Source: Anaerolineae bacterium (GTDB lineage: Bacteria; Chloroflexota; Anaerolineae; Aggregatilineales; Phototrophicaceae). From it: a DNA stretch of 64,000 nucleotides. The notes beneath the pieces are model-generated. The model worked only from the letters and a program-made list of their open reading frames with translations, was not told where the DNA came from and made no database searches. Position 1 is the stretch's first letter; every line of letters starts with the position of its first letter. The DNA is taken from NCBI GenBank assembly GCA_022824365.1, contig JAJEAA010000018.1:248001-312000 (forward strand), given 5' to 3'. The translations under genes and the position numbers were made by a program. Shown here in pieces: positions 46,807 through 51,111 of this stretch.

Positions 46807-46995
46807 CTGTTCTCAACCATTTGTGCTTTTTGTAACAATCCAAGCTGTAGTGAGACTAGCACACTATTTTGGCAAAATCAAGCAAGCTTGCGCTTGGTTT
46901 TCCGTAAATCTGACATTAAAGGAGCATTGCGCTTGGAACGCCGCATTGAACTCTCGAAGTTGGAAAAGCGAATTGAGACAATATCGATCGTCATA

Positions 46996-47053
46996 TATCA
47001 TAAAAATGATAAAAAAAATACCCTTGAAATTTTTAGACGAGTGGCGATAATAT
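46996..47053 (+). promoter_or_regulatory. Candidate promoter and operator of the three-gene operon
   Basis: Perfect palindrome TATCAT-AAAA-ATGATA (46996-47011), then TTGAAA (47024-47029) and AT-rich -10 options around GATAATAT (47046-47053, spacer 16-18). Confidence 0.45.
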
Positions 47054-47073
47054 CCATAAATATATTTGAGAGT

Positions 47074-47631
47074 ATGGAGCCGAAGATGCGAAAGAATGAA
47101 GATTCTCACTTCAAGAAAGATACCCTTGAAAGTTCGTTGCGCGTAGAGCGTGACAAATTGCAGCAGGAGATTAAGCAACTACGCAAAGAAATCGAGGCGA
47201 AGGAATCTCAGTGCCGAGCCAAAGAAGAGCGACTTGGACATGTACAAGCATTGCTTACCGATGAGCCGTCGGCGAGCAGCGGGCCGCCACCTAGACGACC
47301 CGGCGCAGAGCCGTCTTCGACACCAACGCCGCAGCTCCTGGAAATGGCGGAACAAGTCTTGCGCGAGCGTAAGGGAGAGCCGATGCACTACCGTGATCTA
47401 GCTGATGAAATGATGCAGCGGGGCGCGGTCATCTTGGGACAAGACCCTGCTGGCGCGCTGGTGTCGCGCATGACGCAAGATGACAATCGGCGGGCTGAAG
47501 AGGATAGGCGCTTCATCCGCCCCACCAGCAAGGGTTTCTATGCGCTGCGGGAAGATTATCCGGATGCGCGCAATGTGGGCGCGCGGCGGCATCGGAAGCG
47601 GTCGAACATAGCAACTGAAGGGAGCAAGTAG
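47074..47631 (+). CDS. Coiled-coil + HARE-HTH-like (winged helix) protein
   Basis: MEPKMRKNEDSHF... coiled coil LRVERDKLQQEIKQLRKEIEAKESQCRAKEERL, then LLEMAEQVLRERKGEPMHYRDLADEMMQRGAVILGQDPAGALVSRMTQDDNRRAEEDRRFIRPTSKGFYAL, resembling HARE-HTH. Start may be 47074 or 47086; the track ORF (46438) is over-extended into nuoA. Confidence 0.7.
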   Translation: MEPKMRKNEDSHFKKDTLESSLRVERDKLQQEIKQLRKEIEAKESQCRAKEERLGHVQALLTDEPSASSGPPPRRPGAEPSSTPTPQLLEMAEQVLRERKGEPMHYRDLADEMMQRGAVILGQDPAGALVSRMTQDDNRRAEEDRRFIRPTSKGFYALREDYPDARNVGARRHRKRSNIATEGSK

Positions 47632-47634
47632 GAC

Positions 47635-50244
47635 ATGATTAGAGAAGGTTATCGTTCGCCAGGATGGAGTGCCTCCGGCTACTTGAAGATTTTCGAAGGG
47701 AGTTATGGTGACGGGGAGACCCGGATTCTCGCGCAGGAACCGGTACAAAATGCCAAGGACGCTCGTTCTGGAGACGAAGTCGTGCAAGTGGAATACCGGC
47801 TGATGCAGCGCCTTGCCGACGAAGGTCGTCCCTTTAATATGTTGACCGTCACTGATAGGGGTACAACAGGGCTCTGCGGGAATACCAATCCAAGTGCAGC
47901 TACCCTGAAGCGAGCGACAGATGCCGACCGTGAATACCTGAAATGGTATCACTTTGAGCGACTGTTCGACTCGAATAAGACTCAATTGCAGAATGGTTCA
48001 CGCGGCTGGGGTAAAACAATCTTTCTGAAGTGCTCGCGCATACCTTATATGCAGCGCAGCGCAATGATGATATATGATACGCTGCTTGAGAATAGCGAAT
48101 ATCGCTTCGGCGACATGACCATTTGGGATGATGACTTCGGCGTACGCAAGCAACCGCTTCTGAACGACAAAGCCCGACGGGCAGTGTCTGCCCCCTCCTA
48201 CACGACGCCGGACGGCAACATTAGCCTGCCACTGGCGCTCAAACCTTTGCGCGAGCCTGGCACACGAATCACAGTGCCCTTCCTCTCGGATAGCGCCGCC
48301 AAAGCGCTGCGAGATGGAATGCTGGCGCGCTGGCTGCAATACCTGTGGTGGCGCCCCATTGCTGAGGGCAACTTGAGAATCACGATCGTCGATGACAATG
48401 GGCGGAGCGAATCCGTTGTCGAACCCGAGTGGTGGGGGAACGAGATTTGGTCAAGCGACGCGACCGATCCTGGTCCAATTCACCGGCTCTATACAGGCTG
48501 CCATCTACAGGTCCTTGAGAACGAAAACCTTGGGAGCGGCTGTTTCGTGAAGCGCCTGGCGCTGCTCTACGATACCAATATTCGTGACCAGCACATGACT
48601 TATGATGGGCCCGATTATTCAGGCATACAACTGATCCGCTCCGGGCAATGCATCGAAACATATTGGGATTCGAAATCAGACGGAATTCCGCTAAAAGAAA
48701 AACCAGGGTTCCGTGCTTTTGTAGAATTTGATGAAGAGACCGACAAGGCCTTACGCGATATTGATACTACGGCGCATGACAGGTTTCGCCGAACCGGAAT
48801 AGTCAGGGATCCGATTCTTCCCTATCTGAGGGAAAGATTGCACGAATTTGCTGACAAAATCGGACTGATCAAAAGCCAAAGCCGCGATAATGGCAATGCC
48901 AACGAGAAGTTTCTCCGTACAAGCCAATTTGTTTTCGACCGTCTCTTGTCCAAAGCAATGAGTAAAGTTCCAATCGATCGCCCTGGCGATAATCCTGCGA
49001 ACGAAACCGGGATCCCTTGGGAGGTAGATGTACTACTGTCTTATCCCCATCCGAAATCGACGCGAGCGAATTGGTGCGAGCGCATCACCAATCTTCGCTT
49101 TGTGATCAATTCGCGCCCAGAAAGGCTACGCCCACTGACAAGACTCGCCCTCGAGTGGCAAGCGCCGGGTCAAAAGCCCGAAAAGATTTGGTCGCGGAAA
49201 CCCTTGCGTGACATCGACAGCTTTGACTTCCCGGATCGCGTTCTGACTCGGCAAGAGGTGGATGAACCCCATCTCGTCTGTCCCGAGCCAGGCATATACC
49301 GAATCCGTGCTGTTGTCTTCGAGGGAAACAAGTTGGTGGCCAAGAAAGCGCGTTCAATCCACATCGAGATGGATCCGCCAATACGCGAAGAGAAACCTTA
49401 CGCTGTGAGCATTTCAGTTGAAAACGCCACGAATCTCGGCGAGCTGCGCATTGAAAACGATGATATCTTGCGCCTGCAAATTAACGGTCGCAATCGAACA
49501 CACGAAGACGTGTCAGGCACTCTGCTGCTCAGGATGAGGGAAGGTACGCTTCTCGTATCCGAGCAGCCTTTTTTCATGCCAGGCAAGCCACTTGGCGGAG
49601 ACGAACGGCGACGTAAGCTGCACGAATTGAGCTTGCGCGTTGTTCGAGGCGAAGCGGGTGAATCGAGGCGCGAAAACGGAATGTTGACTTTAGCACTCGA
49701 GCCGGGACGACGTGTTATGCAAGCCTATCTGCTGGACGGAAAAGACGAGCTGGCCTATGGTTCGCATATTCTTCACTTTGAATCTGAGCCCGCGCAAACG
49801 CAAGGTGGATTGCCTTTTGAGGTTTTCCAAGTACACAGTGGGACGCCACCAATGTGGGAGCTTAGAATGGAGGAGAGCAAACTGCACTTCGCTTCTAAAT
49901 ACCCGCTCCATACTGCATTGTTAAAGACTTCGACCCCTGAATCCTTTGAGGGTCACAACCCATTTGAATTGGAGATCAATGTAAACGGCCTCCTCCAATG
50001 GGCGCTGGAACCTCTATTTGAAGACGAAGCAGATCCAACTAGACTGGAATCGTTGCGCGACGCAAAACCAAATCTCGTAGACGACGATGCTTGGGATTGG
50101 TACATGGAGTGTTTATCCGAGCTAGAAGCTGAAATCAAGAATTACAAACAAAGGCAACTCATATCACCAATTGATTTTGCCCTAAAATGGAGGAAGACTG
50201 TCGCTGCCATATATCCAATCTTGATTCCACAGGAGAACGACTAA
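47635..50244 (+). CDS. Large GHKL-type ATPase-domain protein of unknown function
   Basis: ILAQEPVQNAKDAR (N-box, E-x3-N-x2-DA), LTVTDRGTTGL (DxGxxG), GSRGWGKTIFL (G-x-GK), GTRITVPFL; starts 4 nt after the previous stop. Confidence 0.75.
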   Translation: MIREGYRSPGWSASGYLKIFEGSYGDGETRILAQEPVQNAKDARSGDEVVQVEYRLMQRLADEGRPFNMLTVTDRGTTGLCGNTNPSAATLKRATDADREYLKWYHFERLFDSNKTQLQNGSRGWGKTIFLKCSRIPYMQRSAMMIYDTLLENSEYRFGDMTIWDDDFGVRKQPLLNDKARRAVSAPSYTTPDGNISLPLALKPLREPGTRITVPFLSDSAAKALRDGMLARWLQYLWWRPIAEGNLRITIVDDNGRSESVVEPEWWGNEIWSSDATDPGPIHRLYTGCHLQVLENENLGSGCFVKRLALLYDTNIRDQHMTYDGPDYSGIQLIRSGQCIETYWDSKSDGIPLKEKPGFRAFVEFDEETDKALRDIDTTAHDRFRRTGIVRDPILPYLRERLHEFADKIGLIKSQSRDNGNANEKFLRTSQFVFDRLLSKAMSKVPIDRPGDNPANETGIPWEVDVLLSYPHPKSTRANWCERITNLRFVINSRPERLRPLTRLALEWQAPGQKPEKIWSRKPLRDIDSFDFPDRVLTRQEVDEPHLVCPEPGIYRIRAVVFEGNKLVAKKARSIHIEMDPPIREEKPYAVSISVENATNLGELRIENDDILRLQINGRNRTHEDVSGTLLLRMREGTLLVSEQPFFMPGKPLGGDERRRKLHELSLRVVRGEAGESRRENGMLTLALEPGRRVMQAYLLDGKDELAYGSHILHFESEPAQTQGGLPFEVFQVHSGTPPMWELRMEESKLHFASKYPLHTALLKTSTPESFEGHNPFELEINVNGLLQWALEPLFEDEADPTRLESLRDAKPNLVDDDAWDWYMECLSELEAEIKNYKQRQLISPIDFALKWRKTVAAIYPILIPQEND

Positions 50245-51047
50245 TGGCCGTCCTCATCTGGAGCGACCGAGACGGCACGCTCGGCAACTCAATCCGCAGC
50301 GGGCGGCGCGTCGCCCTTAGCGCCGAAGAATACCGTCCCGAAGCCGAAGCGCTTGACCAGCGACTCGACGCCCTGCTTGATATGGCCTGGCATGCGCTGT
50401 CCATCATCACGAAACGCGAAAATGGCAAAGCCCGCTTCAATTCCTTCGAGCAGGTATGGGTATTGGGCCGTGCGGTGCATGTCAGCGAAGTGATGCGTCA
50501 CGAGGCGATGCAAGGCGAAGTTCGCACTTTGCTCTGGCAAGCCCTGGCGCCAAAAGCTTGGTATGGCATCCGGCACGACGCCATCCGCGATCCGCGCTGG
50601 CACGAGCTTATTCCAGCGAGGAAGAATCAATGGCGAACACGTACAAGCGACAAGAGGCTAGACCGAGCATATGATTTTCTTGAGGTCGGCTTCTGGCTGC
50701 GAGAACAGCAATTACAGGATGCCGGCGAGGTATTCAGCTGGGAATTCAGCAACGCTCGCAAGCTGTATGTGCGCCCAACGCTACGTTCGAAAGAGCTGCG
50801 TGAGGCGCTGTTGTACTGGCTGCGACGACAATCTCCAGAAGTCCGCGAATTCGCAAAGATCACCGGGACCGTTGAAGGCTTTATCATCTTTGTTAAGGCG
50901 CTGAGCAAACGCTTCCCAGCCAAGGGTCCCGGCTCGGCGCTTTTGCCGCAGCACTATCCGGAAGATGAATTGCGCACTATCGTTTGCCAAGTGCTAGATG
51001 CTGCGCGCGATGCGCATTTCTCGTTCGAGGCGGAAGAAAACGCCTAA
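50244..51047 (+). CDS. Conserved-looking protein of unknown family
   Basis: 267 aa MAVLIWSDRDGTLGNSIRSGRRVALSAEEY...; start overlaps the upstream stop (TAATG), translationally coupled. Confidence 0.7.
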   Translation: MAVLIWSDRDGTLGNSIRSGRRVALSAEEYRPEAEALDQRLDALLDMAWHALSIITKRENGKARFNSFEQVWVLGRAVHVSEVMRHEAMQGEVRTLLWQALAPKAWYGIRHDAIRDPRWHELIPARKNQWRTRTSDKRLDRAYDFLEVGFWLREQQLQDAGEVFSWEFSNARKLYVRPTLRSKELREALLYWLRRQSPEVREFAKITGTVEGFIIFVKALSKRFPAKGPGSALLPQHYPEDELRTIVCQVLDAARDAHFSFEAEENA

Positions 51048-51053
51048 GAAAAC

Positions 51054-51086
51054 ATAGGGCGCGCCCATGCCTGCGACGCGCCCTAT
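51054..51086. terminator. Hairpin between convergent operon and rpoB (probable bidirectional terminator)
   Basis: 10-bp perfect stem ATAGGGCGCG / CGCGCCCTAT with 13-nt loop, followed by TAAAAT. Confidence 0.6.
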
Positions 51087-51111
51087 TAAAATGTCGTTCG
51101 TTGCGTTGAGC

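Follow-up and report, generated by a model that had tools for sequence, protein, structure and literature searches.

Organization of the Operon at the nuoA–rpoB Site

The window, by which we mean the whole 64,000-nucleotide stretch analyzed here, contains a three-gene operon, g1-g2-g3, co-oriented on the + strand and flanked on its left by genes that we take from their sequences to be nuoA–D and on its right by one we take to be rpoB, both on the opposite strand and both highly conserved in sequence among relatives. All three genes are real open reading frames, and their lengths, their common orientation, the TAG-GAC-ATG junction between g1 and g2 and the TAATG overlap between g2 and g3 are as described in the initial annotation. 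The features of the locus are as follows.

46906 to 51111, no strand: segment in the window, absent from the relative G325 (L095), by blastn against empty sites
46973 to 47053, +: promoter-like hexamers TTGAGA-17-TATCAT and TTGAAA-16-GATAAT in an AT-rich stretch, by consensus scan
47074 to 47631, +: g1, 185 aa, predicted coiled coil (about residues 8–64), linker, HARE-HTH winged helix
47338 to 47523, +: HARE-HTH domain of g1, residues 89–150 (PF05066, E 4.9e-11)
47591 to 50230, +: segment most likely replaced, by blastn against nine same-site loci, codon statistics and tree
47635 to 50244, +: g2, 869 aa, predicted GHKL ATPase, S5/transducer-like domain, Ig-like beta domains and helical C-terminus; divergent allele
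47737 to 47763, +: GHKL N-box EPVQNAKDA (E35, N39, D42, A43), conserved in family alignments
47854 to 47871, +: GHKL motif DRGTTG, residues 74–79 (D74, T77 and G79 in at least 90% of the family)
47995 to 48015, +: GHKL motif GSRGWGK, residues 121–127 (G121, R123, G124, G126 and K127 in at least 90% of the family)
48319 to 48729, +: S5/transducer-like domain with GIQLIRSGQCIET, about residues 229–365, from model and family alignment
49018 to 50223, +: Ig-like beta domains (about residues 462–755) and helical C-terminus (757–863), from AlphaFold secondary structure and Foldseek
50244 to 51047, +: g3, 267 aa, N-terminal beta hairpin and helices; putative effector or adaptor
51054 to 51086, no strand: hairpin, probable terminator between the convergent g3 and rpoB, stronger for the rpoB strand

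The initial annotation had also assigned the operon an AT-rich promoter of its own and a bounding hairpin terminator. The promoter-like hexamers are present, but a consensus scan of the region finds them no more often than chance would give (5 found, against 3.1 expected). The hairpin exists, but while it is clearly stable when folded from the - strand (z -3.9), the + strand gives only a weak structure (z -1.8), such that rpoB, which converges on it, is probably served no less than the operon.

Predicted Proteins and Their Relationship to Known Systems

The HARE-HTH domain of g1 clears the Pfam cut-off (43.3 bits against 25.9), in agreement with the earlier description of this protein as a coiled coil with a HARE-HTH-like winged helix, and is the only HARE-HTH found in the window genome. 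A profile search of PDB sequences with the g1 alignment returns mainly coiled-coil proteins, at weak E-values. Domains of this type have been proposed to read modified DNA (PMC10853773, PMC11037411), and we consider g1 a putative DNA-binding adaptor.

On the basis of its motifs, its profile homology to PDC-M33A and the match of its predicted structure to topoisomerase VI-B, g2 is, as judged from sequence and model, a GHKL ATPase in which an S5/transducer-like domain precedes Ig-like domains and a helical end. This type had already been proposed in the initial annotation, and is upheld here. All four GHKL ATP-site motifs (the N-box E-x3-N-x2-D-A, DxGxxG, GxxGxGK and GT) are found in the family alignment, which retains E35, N39, D42, DxGTTG, GSRGxGK and GT, with the GSRGWGK of the window protein being GSRGQGK in most relatives. 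Profile–profile comparison of the g2 family (A3) with 14 M33A-type ATPases gives an hhalign probability of 99.2% (E 1e-19) across columns 15–386, that is, for the N-terminal half of g2, and the PADLOC model PDC-M33A is matched at E ≤ 1 by 15 of the 18 family members (best E-value 1.7e-5), with the window g2 itself unmatched. Searches of single-sequence type against Pfam, PADLOC and NCBIfam profiles did not detect the GHKL domain in the window g2 and, extended to the PDB, returned nothing useful for either g2 or g3; likewise, no related PDB sequence was recovered when the g2 and g3 alignments served as profile queries. The AlphaFold model of g2 is of moderate confidence only (pLDDT 75, pTM 0.48), and finds its top hit in the PDB in topoisomerase VI-B (E 2e-7, to the GHKL/transducer part), which supports the GHKL fold, with further Foldseek matches to Ig-like beta-sandwich proteins. 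The GHKL fold type closes as a dimer on ATP, as in topoisomerase VI-B, MutL, Hsp90 and MORC.

The third protein, which we add here as a conserved family with a confident model (pLDDT 87) and no known fold match, finds no match for this model in the PDB or among viral models, and its family (A4) matches no Pfam family and no PDB sequence; DUF6339 is matched by 0 of 18 members. The family alignment contains invariant W, D, R, K and H residues, together with a GPGSA..PxH-type motif, and g3 is the best, albeit putative, candidate for an effector or adaptor.

The initial annotation had presented the combination as an undescribed system. PADLOC indeed assigns no named system to the window genes, but the ATPase half is of a recognizable PDC-M33A/paraMORC-like kind, and the operon is therefore not wholly undescribed; our best reading is of a PDC-M33/paraMORC-related ATPase system with new partner genes. 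PDC-M33, a PADLOC phage-defense candidate with genes A, B and C, of which C contains DUF6339, shares with it the homologous GHKL and transducer-like ATPase, as well as a compact three-gene layout with a large ATPase gene. In contrast, nothing detectable in PDC-M33 corresponds to g1, to the Ig-like/helical half of g2 or to g3, and no DUF6339 was found in the operon. Specifically, PADLOC matches neither g1 nor g3 to PDC-M33B, for which hhalign gives at most 1.1%, and the hhalign value for g3 against PDC-M33C/DUF6339 is 0.3%. The families are small, however, and absence of a profile match carries little weight for them: the two M33-type subgroups likewise showed no link between their respective B and C families. 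The identification of g3 as DUF6339, and of the g2 C-terminus as a fused M33B, is unsupported by profile comparison.

The MORC/paraMORC ATPases of bacteria, which occur mostly in restriction-modification operons (Iyer 2008, PMC2292703), resemble g2 in carrying the complete set of ATP motifs on an N-terminal GHKL domain, with an S5-type domain behind it, and the GIQLLRGxQWI stretch of the g2 relatives resembles the MORC S5 motif. The corresponding GIQLIRSGQCIET in the S5/transducer-like domain of the window protein resembles this motif without matching it: where the MORC form is GhXhhpXXRhl, the window protein has GIQLIRSGQCI and its relatives have GIQLLRGxQWI, with Gln at the Arg position. The operon further differs in that g2 has Ig-like C-terminal domains and in that, with neighboring genes scanned, it consists of g1–g3 only, with no helicase, methylase or nuclease gene of the sort that paraMORC restriction-modification operons encode. 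Topoisomerase VI-B, while the best solved-structure match for the GHKL/transducer part of g2, has a different C-terminus, and no gene for its topoisomerase VI-A/Spo11 partner is found in the operon. VcSduA, a paraMORC3-type GHKL-nuclease of the Shedu type, likewise uses a GHKL ATPase in phage defense, and its protection requires an ATPase residue (PMC12137116), but it carries a PD-(D/E)XK nuclease domain, and none was detected in g2. Finally, PMC10853773, citing Aravind and Iyer 2012, describes other systems in which restriction nucleases carry a fused HARE-HTH domain. The HARE-HTH is the DNA-binding part there, as in g1, but that of g1 sits on a separate coiled-coil protein with no nuclease.

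Distribution, Turnover and Exchange of g2

Scans of genome contigs and viral contigs with the single proteins returned no relatives; these were recovered by a scan with a five-row GHKL alignment (A2), which gave 18 closer relatives of g2 and nine distant ones. The closer relatives all come from MAGs labeled as Chloroflexota, its subgroups, or Candidatus Hopanoidivorans (L037), and the distant ones reach Planctomycetes (Fuerstiella), Desulfobacterales and Hydrogenedentota. Among the 18, g1 is present in 17, g3 in 17, and both, in the same gene order, in 16, the exceptions being L037, which has no g1, and L026, where the contig ends before g3. The co-occurrence of the three genes exceeds chance, such that their treatment as a unit in the initial annotation is borne out beyond the window genome; so far, this unit is known only from Chloroflexota bacteria, and searches of phage, plasmid and viral-contig collections recovered no copy. 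The relatives outside the genus site lie in different places, where those neighbors with a Pfam name mostly look metabolic. The only such copy adjoining recognized defense genes is the g2-g3 pair of L037, beside relatives of AbiL and PDC-M32A (L037:3474-7353). A 48-residue frame in a genome from another family of the phylum (L147) matches the last part of g3 only, and is apparently a remnant or contig-end piece.

Within the genus, eleven members, including the window genome, where it is single copy, have the operon between nuoA and rpoB (or adjoining whichever of the two their contig holds), and eleven others have an empty site, with a nuoA–rpoB interval of 0.27–0.45 kb. The latter include the nearest relative, G325, in which the RpoB fragment is 98% identical to that of the window: the flanks of the two are 95–96% identical up to 46905 and from 51112, and in G325 the nuoA and rpoB sides are connected by about 168 bp of different sequence. 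Among the 34 genus genomes, g2 and g3, whether full or partial, are found in an identical set of 13, while g1 is found in eleven of those 13 and in G303, where the contig ends within g1. Two of the copies are remnants, comprising the end of g2 and g3 only, beside a transposase-like ORF, in G312, and a broken g2 end and g3, away from nuoA, in G308; in addition, g2 is interrupted by in-frame stops in G330, G310 and G319. Mapped onto the RpoB tree, presence and absence require at least 10 changes, and the operon behaves like an optional immune module, coming and going at one fixed chromosomal site.

The interval itself is a general site of gene turnover, since an SGNH-hydrolase-like gene occupies it in five genomes (L097, L098, L104, L105 and L109) and stands beside the operon in G310 (L106). 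A different gene is found there in G311, and a short stretch with no clear gene in G317.

The window operon also differs from its same-site relatives in a single gene. While its g1 and g3 are 57–69% and 62–86% identical to theirs, respectively, its g2 is 29–33% identical to every relative, even where g3 reaches 86%, compared with 57–87% among the g2 proteins of the genus relatives. Hypervariability of g2 across all relatives was considered and rejected, as only the window (together with G308) is an outlier. At the DNA level, similarity to the same-site loci stops near 47590 and resumes within 50188–50231, which places the right edge of the swap somewhere in 50188–50230; between these points there is none, bar one 44-bp match to L024, and the flanking g1 and g3 DNA matches at 68–84%. 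Third codon positions of the window and L036 agree at 65% in g1, 72% in g3 and 31% in g2, against 47–68% in g2 for other pairs. Because synonymous sites are thus saturated in g2 and kept in both neighbors, faster protein evolution alone does not account for the difference, and the window g2 has most likely been replaced by a divergent ATPase allele. In the g2 tree, the window protein groups with the G308 (L125) fragment in a deep clade that excludes every other g2, and monophyly of the genus g2 sequences is rejected (p 0.0016, for a tested group partly suggested by the data).

An assembly with 37 contigs, in which g2 alone disagrees with its neighbors, might raise the suspicion of a chimera rather than a true allele exchange. 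We consider this highly improbable, as the G308 fragment, 59–73% identical and of the same divergent type, is joined to a genus-type g3 in a second genome, which speaks against a chimera, and as the window g2 is a complete reading frame that fits tightly against g1 on one side and g3 on the other.

Functional Interpretation

The allele swap and the presence/absence polymorphism are the stronger of our results, and the most informative is the exchange within an operon that comes and goes. We consider the operon an accessory three-gene module with a core ATPase of GHKL DNA-clamp type, the most likely function of which, with about an even chance of this account being correct, is innate immunity against phage or plasmid DNA. 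We infer defense as the best-supported role because related GHKL ATPases occur in restriction-modification operons and because VcSduA protects against phage. Also in its favor are the GHKL fold and motifs, the homology of the ATPase half to PDC-M33A, the proposed reading of modified DNA by HARE-HTH and the immune-like dynamics (g2 and g3 in 13 of 34 genomes, eleven empty sites, two remnants, stops and at least 10 changes), as well as the exchange of g2 with g1 and g3 kept and the recurrence of that allele type in another species (L125). Against the immune reading, no nuclease, toxin or other effector domain was recognized in g1–g3, only L037 lies near recognized defense genes outside the genus site, the phage, plasmid and viral-contig collections searched hold no copy, and a range confined to Chloroflexota is also compatible with a chromosome or stress function specific to the lineage. 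The moderate confidence of the g2 model also counts against this explanation.

In such a module, g1 would bind DNA through its HARE-HTH, possibly reading a base modification, and take the complex to foreign DNA. Upon ATP binding, g2 would dimerize through its GHKL and transducer domains, closing a clamp similar to those of topoisomerase VI-B, MutL and MORC, with its Ig-like and helical C-terminal half recognizing the trigger, and closed g2 would then engage g3, which may be an effector or an adaptor to a host target. Our analyses show the gene content and its conservation, the GHKL fold with its ATP-site motifs intact, the HARE-HTH domain, the presence/absence and decay at a single site and the exchange of the g2 allele, whereas we infer the DNA clamping, the role of g2 as recognition subunit and that of g3 as effector. 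Exchange of the entire g2 alongside a retained g1 and g3 suggests that the part varying with the trigger resides in g2, and that g1 and g3 function with either allele. A tentative but plausible extension is that the operon represents a novel immune type, with a HARE-HTH adaptor and an effector of unmatched fold fixed at the genus site, and a GHKL clamp ATPase that is swapped whole between deeply diverged alleles as the recognition unit.

GHKL ATPases recur in uncharacterized candidate defense operons. This family provides a minimal three-gene case in which natural allele exchange, empty sites and decayed copies are all found within one genus, such that the recognition subunit can be sought through allele swaps, and it links HARE-HTH, a discussed reader of modified DNA, to a clamp ATPase with no recognized nuclease.

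That same architecture, a GHKL/transducer protein with no recognized nuclease, would also suit a module for chromosome maintenance or gene silencing, in which the HARE-HTH recruits a MORC-like clamp to compact or silence DNA, g3 is structural and there is no immune role; the single copy in the window genome and the constant genus site adjoining housekeeping genes fit this as well. We nevertheless regard it as unlikely, as most genus members, the nearest relative among them, lack the operon, as it has been repeatedly inactivated, and as a swap of ATPase alleles is unexpected for a housekeeping clamp. It is similarly conceivable that the operon is a modification-dependent, restriction-like system, where the HARE-HTH reads a modified base, the GHKL domain gates cleavage and g3 is an unrecognized nuclease. 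The clustering of paraMORCs with restriction-modification genes (PMC2292703), the HARE-HTH–nuclease fusions of other systems (PMC10853773), and the invariant acidic, Lys, Arg and His residues of g3 all point in this direction; however, g3 is unlike any nuclease family by sequence or fold, and no methylase was recognized beside the copies examined, which makes this reading doubtful.

The shared ATPase family and three-gene layout, together with superficial similarities such as the GPGSA stretch that g3 and, in some relatives, the third gene both have close to their ends, might instead indicate an ordinary, fast-evolving PDC-M33 member in which the B and C genes have diverged beyond recognition and the B part is fused to g2. 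This is quite improbable given that the C-terminal half of g2, g1 and g3 appear unrelated to M33B/M33C-type families (at most 1.1% probability) and that a scan of M33-type loci turned up no gene of the g1 type.

One distant relative elsewhere in the phylum (L003/L005) matches the PADLOC model PDC-M33A, and others reveal complete PDC-M33 A/B/C loci with a DUF6339 protein as C. In M33 loci, the ATPase adjoins DUF6339 proteins, in L015 accompanied by a C5 cytosine methylase-like gene; as read from sequence, such methylase-like ORFs lie just upstream of PDC-M33-type ATPases at L015:8861-9970 and L045:6737-7927. An A-B-C unit, comprising a GHKL protein, an MxRxFNYTxR-type protein and a DUF6339-like protein, recurs in L040–L048, L005 and L019–L021, across Chloroflexota, Planctomycetes, Desulfobacterales and Hydrogenedentota, and its B and C proteins, where tested (from L019 and L020), were missed by the PADLOC models. 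Lastly, a single ORF on the - strand at L018:4718-6400 combines a DUF6339 (PDC-M33C) domain with a PAPS-reductase/SspD-like domain, which possibly links the PDC-M33 candidate system to enzymes of phosphorothioate-type DNA modification.
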